NCBI RefSeq assembly: GCF_001457035.1
Contig: NZ_KQ758617.1
Location: forward strand, 186,001-250,000
From: Fictibacillus enclensis
GTDB lineage: Bacteria > Bacillota > Bacilli > Bacillales > Fictibacillaceae
Reading direction: 5' to 3'
DNA length: 64,000 nt
Shown here: positions 36,077 through 49,101 of the stretch, one piece after another
How the letters are laid out: each line of letters starts with the position of its first letter
Numbering within the stretch: position 1 is the first letter of the stretch
Translations under genes and position numbers: made by a program
The notes under the pieces: generated by a model
Databases searched by the model: none
What the model saw: the letters and a program-made list of their open reading frames with translations, nothing else
Told to the model about the DNA's origin: nothing

Positions 36077-36224
36077 ATGGGTGCCCCTTTCAAAGGTTCT
36101 ATGTACTTAGTACCCATTTTCTCCAATTCATCAAACTAGCAGACAGCTGTCCAAACCCATATTCCATAATTTGCATACCATAGAAAGAAACCTTATGCAA
36201 TTTAATCTAAAGGGAGGGTTATAT

Positions 36225-36614
36225 ATGAAAGAACATTATTATGGGTTATGCTGTCAATATATGGGTCAGGATGTTGAAATCACCACCACCGATGGAAATC
36301 GATACGTAGGAACCATCCAAAATGTTGATGCGGAAAATGTGTATTTGCTTCCCCATCAGGATGATGGAACAGGAAGGTTCTTTCCGTTATTGGGTGCAGG
36401 GCTGATCGGTCTTGGACTCGGTACGATTGCCGGATTTGCACTCGCTCCGCGTCCGACAGTTGCCTTTGGCTACGGTTATGGGTACGGTGGTGTGGCTCCC
36501 TTTCCAGGCGCTTATGGAGGCGTACCGGGAGGATTTGGCGGCTACCCTGGTTATTATGGAGGCTACCCTGGTTATTATGGCGGCTTTCCGGGTGGCGGCT
36601 TTGGGGGCTTCTAA
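36225..36614 (+). CDS. Sm-like N-terminus with Gly/Tyr/Pro-rich tail
   Basis: This 129-aa protein starts at ATG 36225 (GGGAGGGTT upstream). Residues 1-50 look Sm-like: QYMGQDVEITTTDGNRYVGTIQNVDAENVYLLP. A Gly-rich hydrophobic segment (LLGAGLIGLGLGTIAGFAL, about 56-74) follows. The tail has tandem GGYPGYYGGYPGYYGGFPGG units. Gly/Tyr tails are common in spore coat and surface proteins of Bacillus, so a spore or surface location is possible (inference). The nucleotide repeat of the PGYYGGY unit could expand or contract. It ends at its own terminator. Confidence 0.75.
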   Translation: MKEHYYGLCCQYMGQDVEITTTDGNRYVGTIQNVDAENVYLLPHQDDGTGRFFPLLGAGLIGLGLGTIAGFALAPRPTVAFGYGYGYGGVAPFPGAYGGVPGGFGGYPGYYGGYPGYYGGFPGGGFGGF

Positions 36615-38418: not shown

Positions 38419-38441
38419 GAAAATAACTTCATATTATAGCA

Positions 38442-38529
38442 ACACTGGGGGAGCCTTCCTGGCTGAGACTGAACGCATTGTTCTAAACCCTTTGAACCTG
38501 ATCTGGATGATGCCAGCGTAGGGAAGTGC
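38442..38529 (+). promoter_or_regulatory. TPP riboswitch (THI box) of tenI-thiOSGF
   Basis: P1 closes with CACT (38443-38446) and AGTG (38525-38528). The conserved blocks are GGGGAGCC...GGCTGAGA and ACCCTTTGAACCTGATCTGGATGATGCCAGCGTAGGGAAG, diagnostic of the TPP-sensing aptamer. A terminator follows at 38583-38613, so TPP would stop transcription. Confidence 0.96.
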
Positions 38530-38582
38530 CACTGCACAGCTTTGACAGCTGCTGCAGCTGATTTGAAAAAACAGTGAATCAG

Positions 38583-41358: not shown

Positions 41359-42380
41359 TGAACGATCGCTACTCCAGGCAGATCTTATTTGATCCGATCG
41401 GAGAAGGGGGCCAGGAGCTCCTGGCCAATAAGCATGTACTGATCATTGGTGCTGGGGCACTGGGCACTGGAAATGCAGAAGTTCTTGCCCGTGCGGGCGT
41501 TGGGAAGATCACAATCGTCGACCGGGATTATGTGGAGTGGAGCAACCTGCAGCGGCAGCAGCTGTTTTGCGAGGAAGATGCAAAATACCGGATGCCCAAA
41601 GCGGTGGCGGCAAGAGAACGGCTGGAACAGCTTAACTCTGATATCCAGGTCGAAGGGCTTGTTATGGATGCAGGTGCCGAAGAGCTGAGGGAGCTGACAG
41701 AATTTGTCCACCTCATCATTGATGCCACGGATAATTTTGATACAAGGCTTCTGATTAATGATATTTCTCAGGAAACCAAGATCCCATGGATCTATGGTGC
41801 CTGTGTGGGAAGCTATGGCCTTTGCTATACCATTATACCGGGAGAGACTCCTTGTCTTAGCTGTTTGCTGGAAAAGGTGCCGATGGGCGGAGCTACGTGC
41901 GATACAGCAGGCATTATAGCACCCGCTGTACAGACGGTTGTAGCCCATCAGACAGCGGAAGCGTTAAAGTTGTTAACCGAAAACAAGGAAGCACTCCGGA
42001 ACAAACTGGTTTCCTTTGACCTATGGAACAATTATTACATGGCGATGGATGTAAGGAAGTTAAAGAAACAGGATTGTCCTTCCTGTGGAAATCATCCAAC
42101 GTATCCTTTTTTGAATCCCGAAAACCAGACAAAAACAGCCGTGCTCTGTGGAAGAGATACCGTGCAAATCCGTCCCTCTGAGCATGGGGAACGGGATCTG
42201 GAGGAGCTTTCCGGGGTGCTGGCACGATTGGGAGGCAGGATTGAACAAAATCCGTATTTGCTCTCCTATCGGGCGGATGAACAGCACCGGCTTGTTTTCT
42301 TCAAGGACGGACGAGTTTTAATCCATGGTACGAAAGATATAGCTGAAGCGAAAAATCTGTACTATAGTTTGATAGGATAA
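41358..42380 (+). CDS. thiF: ThiS adenylyltransferase ThiF
   Basis: This 340-aa E1-like enzyme adenylates the C-terminus of ThiS. RYSRQILFDPIGEGGQELLANKHVLIIGAGALGTGNAEVLARAGVG is the ATP-binding N-terminus, followed by RDYVEWSNLQRQQLF. A zinc site is formed by CLSC (about 171-174) and CPSC. The C-terminal ~80 residues are a short extra domain. The gene overlaps the thiG stop (TAATG) and ends the thiazole operon. No thiD follows, unlike B. subtilis. Confidence 0.95.
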   Translation: MNDRYSRQILFDPIGEGGQELLANKHVLIIGAGALGTGNAEVLARAGVGKITIVDRDYVEWSNLQRQQLFCEEDAKYRMPKAVAARERLEQLNSDIQVEGLVMDAGAEELRELTEFVHLIIDATDNFDTRLLINDISQETKIPWIYGACVGSYGLCYTIIPGETPCLSCLLEKVPMGGATCDTAGIIAPAVQTVVAHQTAEALKLLTENKEALRNKLVSFDLWNNYYMAMDVRKLKKQDCPSCGNHPTYPFLNPENQTKTAVLCGRDTVQIRPSEHGERDLEELSGVLARLGGRIEQNPYLLSYRADEQHRLVFFKDGRVLIHGTKDIAEAKNLYYSLIG

Positions 42381-42392
42381 TTGAATAGCACT

Positions 42393-42480
42393 CTGCTAGG
42401 GGAGCCGGAAACGGCTGAGACTGAACCTTTGTTCTACACCCTTGGAACCTGATCTGGATGATGCCAGCGTAGGGAAGCAG
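42393..42480 (+). promoter_or_regulatory. TPP riboswitch (THI box) of the thiamin salvage operon
   Basis: P1 is CTGCT (42393-42397) / AGCAG (42476-42480). Inside are GGGGAGCC...GGCTGAGA and ACCCTTGGAACCTGATCTGGATGATGCCAGCGTAGGGA, as in the first TPP aptamer. It starts only 12 bp after the thiF stop, so read-through from the thiazole operon also passes through it. A terminator follows at 42518-42549. Confidence 0.96.
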
Positions 42481-42517
42481 GCTTGCGAAACGGTTTTTAG
42501 ACGAATCGATCATACAG

Positions 42518-42549
42518 CCGCCTTCCTCATCTGGGGAAGGCGGTTTTTT
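42518..42549 (+). terminator. Riboswitch-controlled terminator 2
   Basis: The 9-bp stem CCGCCTTCC / GGAAGGCGG with an 8-nt loop is followed by six T. Confidence 0.92.
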
Positions 42550-42704
42550 ATATGCATAAGGATCAGCGATAAAAATCCTCATTGATATGTTGATTGGAGT
42601 GCAAGGTGCGAGATCCTCGAAAATGAACTTCACATTTTCTTCGTGCGATGTAACGCTGCTGAAGCGTTCCTTGTCCAGCGGGATATGCGTGACAGGTGAG
42701 AGCA
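42550..42704 (+). other. Spacer between TPP terminator and repeat array
   Basis: About 155 bp without an ORF that has a ribosome binding site. It leads directly into the 22-bp repeat array. Together with the array it separates the TPP riboswitch from ylmB by about 450 bp, an unusually long leader. Confidence 0.4.
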
Positions 42705-42932
42705 GGTAGGCGTTTTACGCCGGCAAGGTAGGCGTTTTACGCCGGCAAGGTAGGCGTTTTACGCCGGCAAGGTAGGCGTTTTACGCCGGAAAGGTAGGCG
42801 TTTTACGCCGGCAAGGTAGGCGTTTTACGCCGGCAAGGTAGGCGTTTTACGCTGGCAAAGGCAGGTATTTTACGCCGGCCAATGGGGAGCTTGCGCCGCG
42901 GGGCTCATAAGTAGGCACTTGCGCCGGTCAAA
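42705..42932 (+). repeat. 22-bp tandem hairpin repeat array
   Basis: Seven near-identical 22-bp units start at 42705, 42727, 42749, 42771, 42793, 42815 and 42837. The unit begins GGTAGGCGTTTTACGCCGGC and ends AA, and its core GGCG-TTTTA-CGCC is a small inverted repeat. Unit 4 ends in GGAAA, and unit 7 has GCTGGC. An eighth unit from about 42859 reads GGTATTTTACGCCGGCC, and two diverged units (TTGCGCC cores) continue to about 42932. Repeats are contiguous without unique spacers, so this is not a CRISPR array. The unit length is not a multiple of three, so it is not a coding repeat. Confidence 0.92.
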
Positions 42933-43003
42933 GCGAGCATCCTGAAACGGAAAGCAACTGCTTTCAAGAGCAACAAAGGTTCAGCAGATAAAGGAGGGTG
43001 AGC

Positions 43004-44293
43004 ATGAGCAGTATTCAGGACAAGATTAATAAGTTGGCAGATGAAAGAAAAGAGGATTTGATCGAGATTCTTCGGTCGCTTGTGGCCTTCCGGACAGAAA
43101 GCCCGCCGGCCAGAAATACTGAGGAAGCCCAGCATTATATCAAATATCTTCTTCGGGACCTCGGGTTTGAGACAGAAGAGTGGGGGCTGTTTCCGGGTGA
43201 CACGATAGTGGCTGGAACCAAACCCGGGAGAAACAGTGAACAGTATCAAAGTCTTATCCTCAATGGGCATATCGACGTGGTAGCGGCAGGAGATGAAGAT
43301 GAATGGGAGCATACGCCGTTTGAATTAAGGAAAGACGGAGATTTTTTGTATGGAAGAGGCACAGCTGATATGAAAGGAGGAATGGCCTCCACACTTTTTG
43401 CGCTGCAGCTGTTACGGGAATTAGGCGTCGAACTGGATGGCGATTTATATTTTCAATCCGTAACAGGAGAAGAAGCCGGTGAAGCTGGAACAAAATCATG
43501 CGTCGACCGCGGCATGCAAGCTGATTTTGCCGTTGTGGCGGATACATCCGATCTTGCCATCCATGGGCAGGGCGGTGTGATTACAGGCTGGATCACGATA
43601 AAAAGCAAAACCACTCATCATGATGGCCTCCGTTCCCGATTGATTCATGCCGGCGGAGGCATTGTTGGTGCAAGTGCCATTGAAAAGATGATGAAAGTCA
43701 TACAGGGGCTGCAGGAGCTTGAGCGTCACTGGGCCGTAACCAAAGTCTATCCCGGGTTTTTGCCGGGCAGCACAACGATCAATCCTTCGGTTATTGAGGG
43801 GGGAAGGAATGCGGCCTATATTGCGGATGAGTGCAGGCTTTGGATTACCGTCCATTTTCATCCGAACGAGACTTATAAAGAGGTTGCGGAGGAAATTCAG
43901 CAGCATGTCCTTGCCGTTGCCCAAGGAGATCCTTGGCTCAAAGAAAATCCGCCTTCCTTTGACTGGGGCGGAAAATCGATGATCGAAGACAGAGGAGAGA
44001 TTTTTCCTGCTATTGATATTGATGAAAATCATCCGGGGCTCGTCATGCTGAAGAATCAGCATCACCAGGTATCCAAGCAGGAGGCTGTCGTTTCCATGTC
44101 ACCGACAGTGACAGACGCGGGCTGGCTGGGACAAGCCGGGATACCCACTGTGATTTACGGCCCCGGAAAACTGGAGGAAGCCCATTCGCTAAATGAGAGA
44201 GTAGAGCTTCAGCAGTTAATCCATCATGCAAAAGTTCTCGCCGGGTTTATTGAAAAATGGTGCAATACAGAAAGGAGCACTTTAAATGGTTAA
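43004..44293 (+). CDS. ylmB: Formylaminopyrimidine deformylase YlmB (M20 family)
   Basis: This 429-aa M20 amidohydrolase hydrolyses N-formyl-4-amino-5-aminomethyl-2-methylpyrimidine, a breakdown product of thiamin. Metal-binding motifs are LNGHIDVVAAGDEDEWEH, LYGRGTADMKGGM and SVTGEEAGEAGT, with a late His in PGKLEEAHSLNERVE. The family also includes acetylornithine deacetylases, but the neighbours tenA and thiZXY identify the salvage role. AGGAGG (42992-42997) precedes ATG 43004 by six bases; a GTG at 42998 is too close. It overlaps tenA by 8 bp. Confidence 0.9.
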   Translation: MSSIQDKINKLADERKEDLIEILRSLVAFRTESPPARNTEEAQHYIKYLLRDLGFETEEWGLFPGDTIVAGTKPGRNSEQYQSLILNGHIDVVAAGDEDEWEHTPFELRKDGDFLYGRGTADMKGGMASTLFALQLLRELGVELDGDLYFQSVTGEEAGEAGTKSCVDRGMQADFAVVADTSDLAIHGQGGVITGWITIKSKTTHHDGLRSRLIHAGGGIVGASAIEKMMKVIQGLQELERHWAVTKVYPGFLPGSTTINPSVIEGGRNAAYIADECRLWITVHFHPNETYKEVAEEIQQHVLAVAQGDPWLKENPPSFDWGGKSMIEDRGEIFPAIDIDENHPGLVMLKNQHHQVSKQEAVVSMSPTVTDAGWLGQAGIPTVIYGPGKLEEAHSLNERVELQQLIHHAKVLAGFIEKWCNTERSTLNG

Positions 44294-48772: not shown

Positions 48773-48790
48773 AAGACTAATTTAAAAAAG

Positions 48791-48897
48791 CTTATCCAGA
48801 GCGGTGGAGGGAAAGGCCCGATGAAACCCGGCAACCTTCAGGCAGATTGTCTGAAAAGGTGCCAAGTCCTTCAAAGGTACAACTTTGAGCGATAAGA
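48791..48897 (+). promoter_or_regulatory. SAM-I riboswitch (S-box), copy 1
   Basis: P1 is CTTATC (48791-48796) / GATAAG (48891-48896). Conserved blocks AGAGCGGTGGAGGGAAAGGCCCGATGAA, CCCGGCAACC and GGTGCCAAGTCC are present. Its terminator lies at 48914-48944. SAM should promote termination. Confidence 0.95.
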
Positions 48898-48913
48898 GAT
48901 GAAACCGGAATGT

Positions 48914-48993: not shown

Positions 48994-49101
48994 CTCTTAT
49001 CCAGAGCGGCGGAGGGAAAGGCCCTATGAAGCCCGGCAACCTACAGGCATATTGCCTGAAAAGGTGCTACTACCTGCAGGAGAAATCCTGGATGATAAGA
49101 G
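48994..49101 (+). promoter_or_regulatory. SAM-I riboswitch (S-box), copy 2
   Basis: P1 is CTCTTATC (48994-49001) / GATAAGAG (49094-49101). The blocks CCAGAGCGGCGGAGGGAAAGGCCC, GCCCGGCAACC and AAAAGGTGCTA are clear. The P4-side region (CTGCAGGAGAAATCCTG) is unlike copy 1. It has its own terminator at 49112-49140 and directly precedes hom. Confidence 0.93.

Follow-up and report, generated by a model that had tools for sequence, protein, structure and literature searches.

A palindromic hairpin array in the ylmB leader of Fictibacillus enclensis is most likely the expanded tip of an old MITE copy

As described in PMC3049150, the BOX repeats of Streptococcus pneumoniae have a module on either flank and, in between, a tandem middle module in varying number. 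The predicted fold of the middle module is largely self-contained, so that its number can vary, and the repeats are over-represented between convergent genes. The account of the BrickBuilt MITE of Porphyromonas gingivalis in PMC4596501 presents a 23-nt minisatellite accompanied by a leader and a tail with IS-like inverted ends; these ends are of the IS5 type, the target duplications are irregular, and the 19 copies include no complete repeat-free one. Among the Bacillaceae, Bhal-1 of Bacillus halodurans and bcr1 of the B. cereus group are described in PMC2267715 as short stem-loop repeats present in tens of copies; the entries there give Bhal-1 as 74 nt long with 36 copies and list Bhal-2 as containing CRISPR repeats. 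Bacillaceae-1 RNA (RF01690) is, in the description of PMC2864571, a 67-nt RNA of two hairpins with an unknown role. A term search of the main text of a review of prokaryotic MITEs (PMC10969869) found mention of neither Bacillus nor IS1595. Literature searches by topic and by sequence words yielded no description of the Bacillales element family considered below among the matches listed.

The window analysed here is a stretch of 64,000 nucleotides of Fictibacillus enclensis (contig NZ_KQ758617.1, positions 186,001 to 250,000 of the forward strand), in which a first-pass annotation had singled out 22-bp hairpin repeats upstream of an ORF that we take, following the name given there, to be YlmB and to act in thiamin salvage. 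TRF reports the array at 42704-42879 with period 22, 8.0 copies, 94% matches and a score of 308, the top of the seven TRF rows in the window. Seven 22-bp units, a diverged eighth and two further hairpins are confirmed, as are the decay at the 3' edge, the TPP riboswitch, its terminator with a 13-pair stem and a T run, the start of the ylmB ORF at 43004 and, by position, the place of the array inside the ylmB leader. We found that the array sits within an interspersed repeat whose core spans 42589-42958. This element is a MITE made of a long covarying hairpin, usually with one small hairpin at its tip, and we consider it very probable that the array is the expanded hairpin tip of an old copy, a passenger rather than a part of thiamin regulation. 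The leader and the copy that it holds are laid out as follows:

42388..42492, + strand: TPP riboswitch aptamer of the ylmB leader (context, outside the element; Rfam RF00059, 77.2 bits)
42516..42549, + strand: the riboswitch's intrinsic terminator (context; stem of 13 pairs, then a T run; string match 42518-42549)
42575..42588, + strand: decayed 5' subterminal part ATCCTCATTGATAT (compare CTTCATTGACAA elsewhere, from the flanks of 54 collected copies)
42589..42616, + strand: 5' arm of the core, starting GTTGATT; its partner in the consensus structure is the 3' arm
42617..42676, + strand: optional inserted module of ~60 nt, present in some copies only (by eye, similar at the same site in L251 and L258, reversed in L253)
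42677..42703, + strand: 5' strand of the upper stem (AGCGGGATATGCGTGACAGGTGAGAGC)
42704..42857, + strand: seven near-identical 22-bp hairpin units AGGTAGGCGTTTTACGCCGGCA
42858..42880, + strand: diverged eighth unit
42881..42907, + strand: hairpin GGAGCTTGCGCC (~42881-42901), by comparison with canonical copies probably what is left of the ancestor's single apical hairpin, and the start of the returning strand, GGCTCA
42908..42929, + strand: one hairpin unit (GTAGGCACTTGCGCCGGT, ~42911-42928) at a second insertion point, before AAAGCGAGC
42930..42958, + strand: 3' arm of the core (AAAGCGAGCATCCTGAAACGGAAAGCAAC)
42959..42979, + strand: 3' subterminal repeat (TGCTTTCAAGAGCAACAAAGG), past which the outer end known from relatives cannot be recognised
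42990..43000, + strand: ribosome-binding site of ylmB (context)
43004..44293, + strand: ylmB, an M20-type deacylase (context; ORF, NCBIfam NF006370 named acetylornithine deacetylase, 684.8 bits)

The exact units begin at 42704, 42726, 42748, 42770, 42792, 42814 and 42836, with a GGAA variant at 42770 and a GCTGG variant at 42836, and the 13-mer GGCGTTTTACGCC occurs six times in the source genome, every time within this array. Other copies have a CACGCCCTGCGG strand that this one lacks, and the second insertion point before AAAGCGAGC is also used in L057, L063, L066, L067, L069 and L070. Each unit could fold on itself, but the minimum-energy fold of the RNA from 42682 to 42902 (z = -3.0 against dinucleotide shuffles) is not a row of small hairpins; it pairs the units with one another along a single long arm.

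A simple scan of 42380-43010 found no promoter-like site; hence, the copy in the ylmB leader is probably transcribed only when the terminator is read through. When so transcribed, a stable structure of almost 400 nt would separate the attenuator from the ribosome-binding site and may affect how long the RNA lasts or how well it is translated, and a passive effect on the ylmB mRNA is possible; the array would be a near-neutral passenger with at most a modest effect on the stability or folding of the leader RNA. We also noted a perfect 13-nt complement between the TPP aptamer (42421-42433) and a stretch just before the ribosome-binding site (42972-42984). This pairing is probably due to chance and was dropped: its second part consists mostly of the 3' subterminal repeat common to the element's copies, and F. 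solisalsi and F. fluitans have other letters in the aptamer.

Within the F. enclensis genome, 52 BLAST and 35 covariance-model matches merge to at least 48 places, 27 of them found by both methods; as only part of the candidates was scored (40 of 57 for BLAST and 150 of 1125 for the model), this number is a floor by count, and three of the places rest solely on E-values of 0.007-0.01. The 48 places, with the locus fetched and examined for 41 of them, show the many intergenic, gene-free and interspersed copies of a MITE. These 41 copies lie in tandem gaps in the sense (18) or antisense (7) orientation, in convergent gaps (14) and in divergent gaps (2), the gap types coming from a rough ORF caller and the counts standing without a genome-wide baseline; within these bounds, the scarcity in divergent gaps fits a tolerated insertion, and the 14 convergent against 2 divergent copies recall the placement of BOX between convergent genes (as given in PMC3049150). 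Across relatives, a 127-nt copy, which as a query biases the fetched copies to the one-hairpin form, matches 55 of 100 genomes including the source genome, and 24 of 59 genera. An even sample of the phylum searched under stricter filters gave model matches in 4 of 398 genomes, namely the source genome, two further members of its order and one more from its class. The plasmid carriers, 16 of 72,556 records, belong to Priestia, Peribacillus, Bacillus, Paenibacillus, Cytobacillus and Niallia; 14 of these records have no annotated feature under the match and 2 have a 'hypothetical protein' (the gene table being incomplete). The 50,697 phage records gave no match. Going by its description in PMC2267715, Bhal-1 could belong to the same family.

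The canonical core of ~127 nt forms one long hairpin with a single small hairpin (GGCGC-loop-GCGCC) at its tip, and reads in order GTTGATTGGAGTG..AAGGTGCGAGACTCC TGCGGGA..AGCGGGACAGGTGAGACC, the hairpin GGCGC-NNN-GCGCC, and GGCTCACCGCACGCCCCGCGG AAAGCGAGC..CCTG.AACGGAAATCAAC. The copy L093, for instance, folds into one long hairpin with z = -6.1. Our first alignment (A1) comprised 26 of the 29 copies of 120-132 nt among 54 collected. The second (A2), with 73 copies fitted to the model and a few odd rows (e.g., both strands of L113), has 94.8% of its cells in pairs, with two-sided changes in 29 of 37 pairs and a covariation score of 0.232 as against 0.100 when shuffled and at most 0.045 with the partner slid. 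Five of seven elements from the order-mate G050 were matched by the model (L243 and L253 were unmatched). The covariation might point to a function of the core itself, and the two-sided changes might also come from repair copying between the hairpin arms.

The core accepts inserts at fixed points, recognised by eye except for the model and Rfam scores. The 5' arm has the ~60-nt module of the window copy (42617-42676), with a similar one in L251 and L258 of G050, or a longer insert in two copies of G009 (L305). The 3' arm takes its inserts before AAAGCGAGC: Fictibacillus copies have one small hairpin there, many G050 copies a module of 67 nt, and the G491 copies L276 and L279 another hairpin-forming sequence, i.e., three unrelated-looking inserts at one point. 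The tip, finally, bears hairpin arrays in Fictibacillus and Bacillaceae-1 RNA in an element-like copy at L111:2867-3053 (minus strand; model match of 45.5 bits), where RF01690 matches at 63.8 bits over L111:2924-2991, at the apex of the element-like long hairpin. This sole Rfam match inside an element-like copy is a single case, placing the RNA described in PMC2864571 where Fictibacillus has its arrays; in contrast, no Rfam covariance model matches over the window element itself. As a separate observation, the ~60-nt module is seemingly common to copies from different families, and in L253 it lies reversed near the tip, as if modules could move between the hairpin arms.

The outer ends of the element start with GGCT. 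Exact 8-bp target duplications flank 15 of the 17 end-paired elements of G050, a set fetched via paired 12-bp ends, while the remaining two agree at 6/8 and 2/8. Elsewhere, a duplication of at least 7/8 is found at 9 of 36 copies with loosely recognised ends, one of the nine also belonging to the G050 set, as against a mean of 0.58 and a maximum of 4 in shuffles. Intact copies of relatives have both the terminal inverted repeats and the fixed-length target duplication of a MITE. Neither outer ends nor a target duplication could be recognised in the window copy or in the other source-genome copies put through the same test; hence, these copies look old.

Turning to the probable source of the ends, we found six loci with a match to the IS1595-family transposase (DDE_Tnp_IS1595, PF12762) in 6 of 35 genomes, 5 of them above the cut-off. 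Element-like inverted ends are present at four of the six (L175 and L179 are without them), and all seven ends tested at these four agree with element ends at 20-22 of 26 positions, with none of 5000 shuffles as high for each; here, the seven element ends were hand-picked and the shuffles ignore the choice of GGCT-starting IS ends. The right end of L177, a locus with an inner stop, was unscored, and the open frame of L178 has just 87 aa. Flanking 8-bp repeats agree at 8/8 in L178 and at 7/8 in L174 and L176. Thus, the element resembles the IS1595 family in its outer ends and flanking repeats, whereas it is itself without a transposase and has the ends alone in common. The source genome has no match to PF12762, PF01610 or PF01797, and so no partner transposase was found there by the PF12762 search; the element would have been transposed by an IS1595 transposase. 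An ISL3-type origin, suggested by the GGCT start and the 8-bp duplication, was dropped because two ISL3 ends reach 14/26 and the source genome has no ISL3 match. When the 12-bp G050 ends were sought as an IS-sized pair, short elements or single ends were all that came up, and a plasmid search with an element end gave no lead. Two G050 loci, L291 and L299, have the same GGCTCTGTTAAA end around a different interior and are perhaps further MITE families with the same ends.

Core and ends also differ in their degree of likeness. In a comparison of six copies, core identity among three end types is 84-91% between types and 93-94% within a type, and the 26-bp 5' ends agree at 9-16 of 26 positions between types. 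As two ends of the same type agree at just 15/26, a faster drift of the ends could suffice, and exchange is not needed. L265, which has the most diverged core, resembles the others at 70-75%, and its end agrees at 13-18/26. The interior was either kept as useful, or captured, or is merely slower-evolving. A bolder reading, which we hold to be doubtful and offer tentatively, would make the core a selected structured scaffold (of RNA or single-stranded DNA) that is set between IS1595-type ends and carries exchangeable modules. If it were true, the copy number at the tip would be tunable, affecting for example the lifetime of the RNA or the binding of a protein, and the array at ylmB would be one extreme. 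The likeness of the core across end types and the inserts at fixed points are the part most worth specialist attention, and a conserved core with changing ends and inserts makes selection on MITE interiors testable.

How the tip came to be an array can be read from the sister copies. TRF arrays of period 20-22 occur in 10 of the 41 source-genome places, with at least four units in six of them. Among 34 units extracted by pattern, identity is 0.948 within copies (85 pairs) and 0.840 between them (476 pairs), and none of 500 label shuffles is as high; the loop is TTTTA at ylmB, TTTA in L055, L056 and most of L059, TTCA in L057 and CTTG in L058. Since the units are alike within a copy and different between copies, the pattern is that of local amplification after insertion. 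The first-pass annotation had suggested a recent expansion, and this likeness within copies now speaks for it, together with orthologous sites in two relatives that have one and three hairpins. In the Fictibacillus genomes G006 and G003, 2 of 7 and 4 of 9 paired copies, respectively, have at least two small tip hairpins; outside the genus, this holds for none of 6 paired copies of G009 and, by eye, none of 17 G050 elements, the rarity there being drawn from 17 end-chosen elements and 6 G009 copies taken from 400 kb.

In terms of architecture alone, this arrangement resembles BOX, as pictured in PMC3049150, in being a composite interspersed repeat with a variable tandem module, and differs from it in that the unit is a 20-22-bp apical hairpin and that intact copies have IS1595-like ends with 8-bp duplications. 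With BrickBuilt, on the account in PMC4596501, it shares a minisatellite within an intergenic MITE with IS-like inverted ends; here, however, arrays are exceptional and one hairpin is the norm among the copies sampled.

The orthologous leaders in Fictibacillus differ from one another. The closest named ylmB loci are those of F. solisalsi (92%) and F. fluitans (85%). In F. fluitans, the leader has this insertion as well, with a pair of diverged hairpins at the tip and a third, likewise diverged, at the second point. That of F. solisalsi (L016/L045) has the element in reverse orientation with one tip hairpin and no array; whether this reflects an inversion or an independent insertion at the same intergenic site cannot be told. 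The element is absent at ylmB from three congeners (L018-L020), and a sixth, G001, has no close ylmB (best 37%). Thus, among the five congeners with a close ylmB, the element or array is inverted, shortened or absent, and ylmB and the riboswitch are retained across the orthologous loci despite the differing orientation and unit number; neighbour species manage without the ylmB array. Upstream of ylmB, L018, L019 and L020 have GGTGCCAGGCACC-like palindromes in the place of the element, which are another repeat.

We accordingly picture the following course of events. In the clade formed by the source strain, F. solisalsi and F. fluitans, a copy would have inserted downstream of the TPP-riboswitch terminator and ahead of ylmB, after which its outer ends would have decayed. 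In the source lineage, the palindromic tip would then have been copied head to tail from a local founder with the five-base TTTTA loop, probably via replication slippage at the hairpin or unequal recombination; of these, we infer slippage at hairpins as the likely cause of growth. Any number of palindromic units should still fold, as a row or as a longer arm, and expansion would thus be tolerated.

Three other explanations deserve to be weighed against a passenger tip. The array might be a functional part of the thiamin-salvage leader, its hairpins stabilising the read-through mRNA, slowing the ribosome or binding a protein and thereby tuning ylmB-tenA. Its position on the sense strand between the attenuator and the ribosome-binding site, its probable transcription on read-through given that 42380-43010 is without a promoter-like site, and a folding energy below that of shuffles would all suit such a role. 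Nevertheless, we regard it as quite improbable: the arrangement is not conserved, with an inverted copy in F. solisalsi, three hairpins in F. fluitans and no element in three congeners, and the same element occurs at 48 places in varied gene contexts. The specific role in thiamin salvage proposed for the array therefore finds no support, given that the element is scattered genome-wide with sister arrays at other copies, that the F. solisalsi copy is inverted and array-free, and that three congeners are without the element at ylmB. It had been stated in advance that arrays scattered over many intergenic sites would make that role unlikely; the element and its sister arrays are indeed scattered, but the exact unit is unique to ylmB.

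The periodicity of the array invites a different thought, that of double-stranded, iteron-like operator sites for a DNA-binding regulator, with perfect inverted half-sites GGCG/CGCC recurring every 22 bp, i.e., about two helical turns. The units of other loci, however, differ in loop length and letters and have periods of 20, 21 and 22, and no link to a single pathway was noticed, which leaves operators a very remote prospect. Equally hard to credit is a REP origin, with GTAG-tagged palindromes mobilised by a REP-associated tyrosine transposase (RAYT). Many units do consist of GTAG followed by a palindrome, like the GTAG REPs described in PMC3733652, but the tag is missing from the units of L058 and some of L055, 30 of the 31 places with GTAGGCGNNNNCGCCGG fall at known element places, and the source genome has no match to Y1_Tnp (PF01797). 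The combination of a GTAG tag and a RAYT gene is thus not found; in contrast to the REPs of that description, the units sit in a MITE with other ends, in a genome without a tyrosine transposase match.

With the array read as an expanded MITE tip, an apparent regulatory oddity becomes an example, with BOX and BrickBuilt as parallels, of a transposon-borne hairpin that gives rise to a minisatellite within the leader of a gene. Naming the element family would prevent false gene and leader calls.

The window holds a few further features of note. The TPP riboswitch of the ylmB leader (42388-42492) and another at 38437-38541 flank a run of thiamin-type ORFs, one of them ThiF-like. Two SAM riboswitch aptamers lie in tandem at 48789-48898 and 48994-49101, with 95 nt between them. 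Finally, the ORF at 36171-36614 has a C-terminal repeat rich in Gly, Pro and Tyr (GGYPGYYGGYPGYYGG), matched by tandem DNA at 36536-36585, and is possibly a spore or surface protein.
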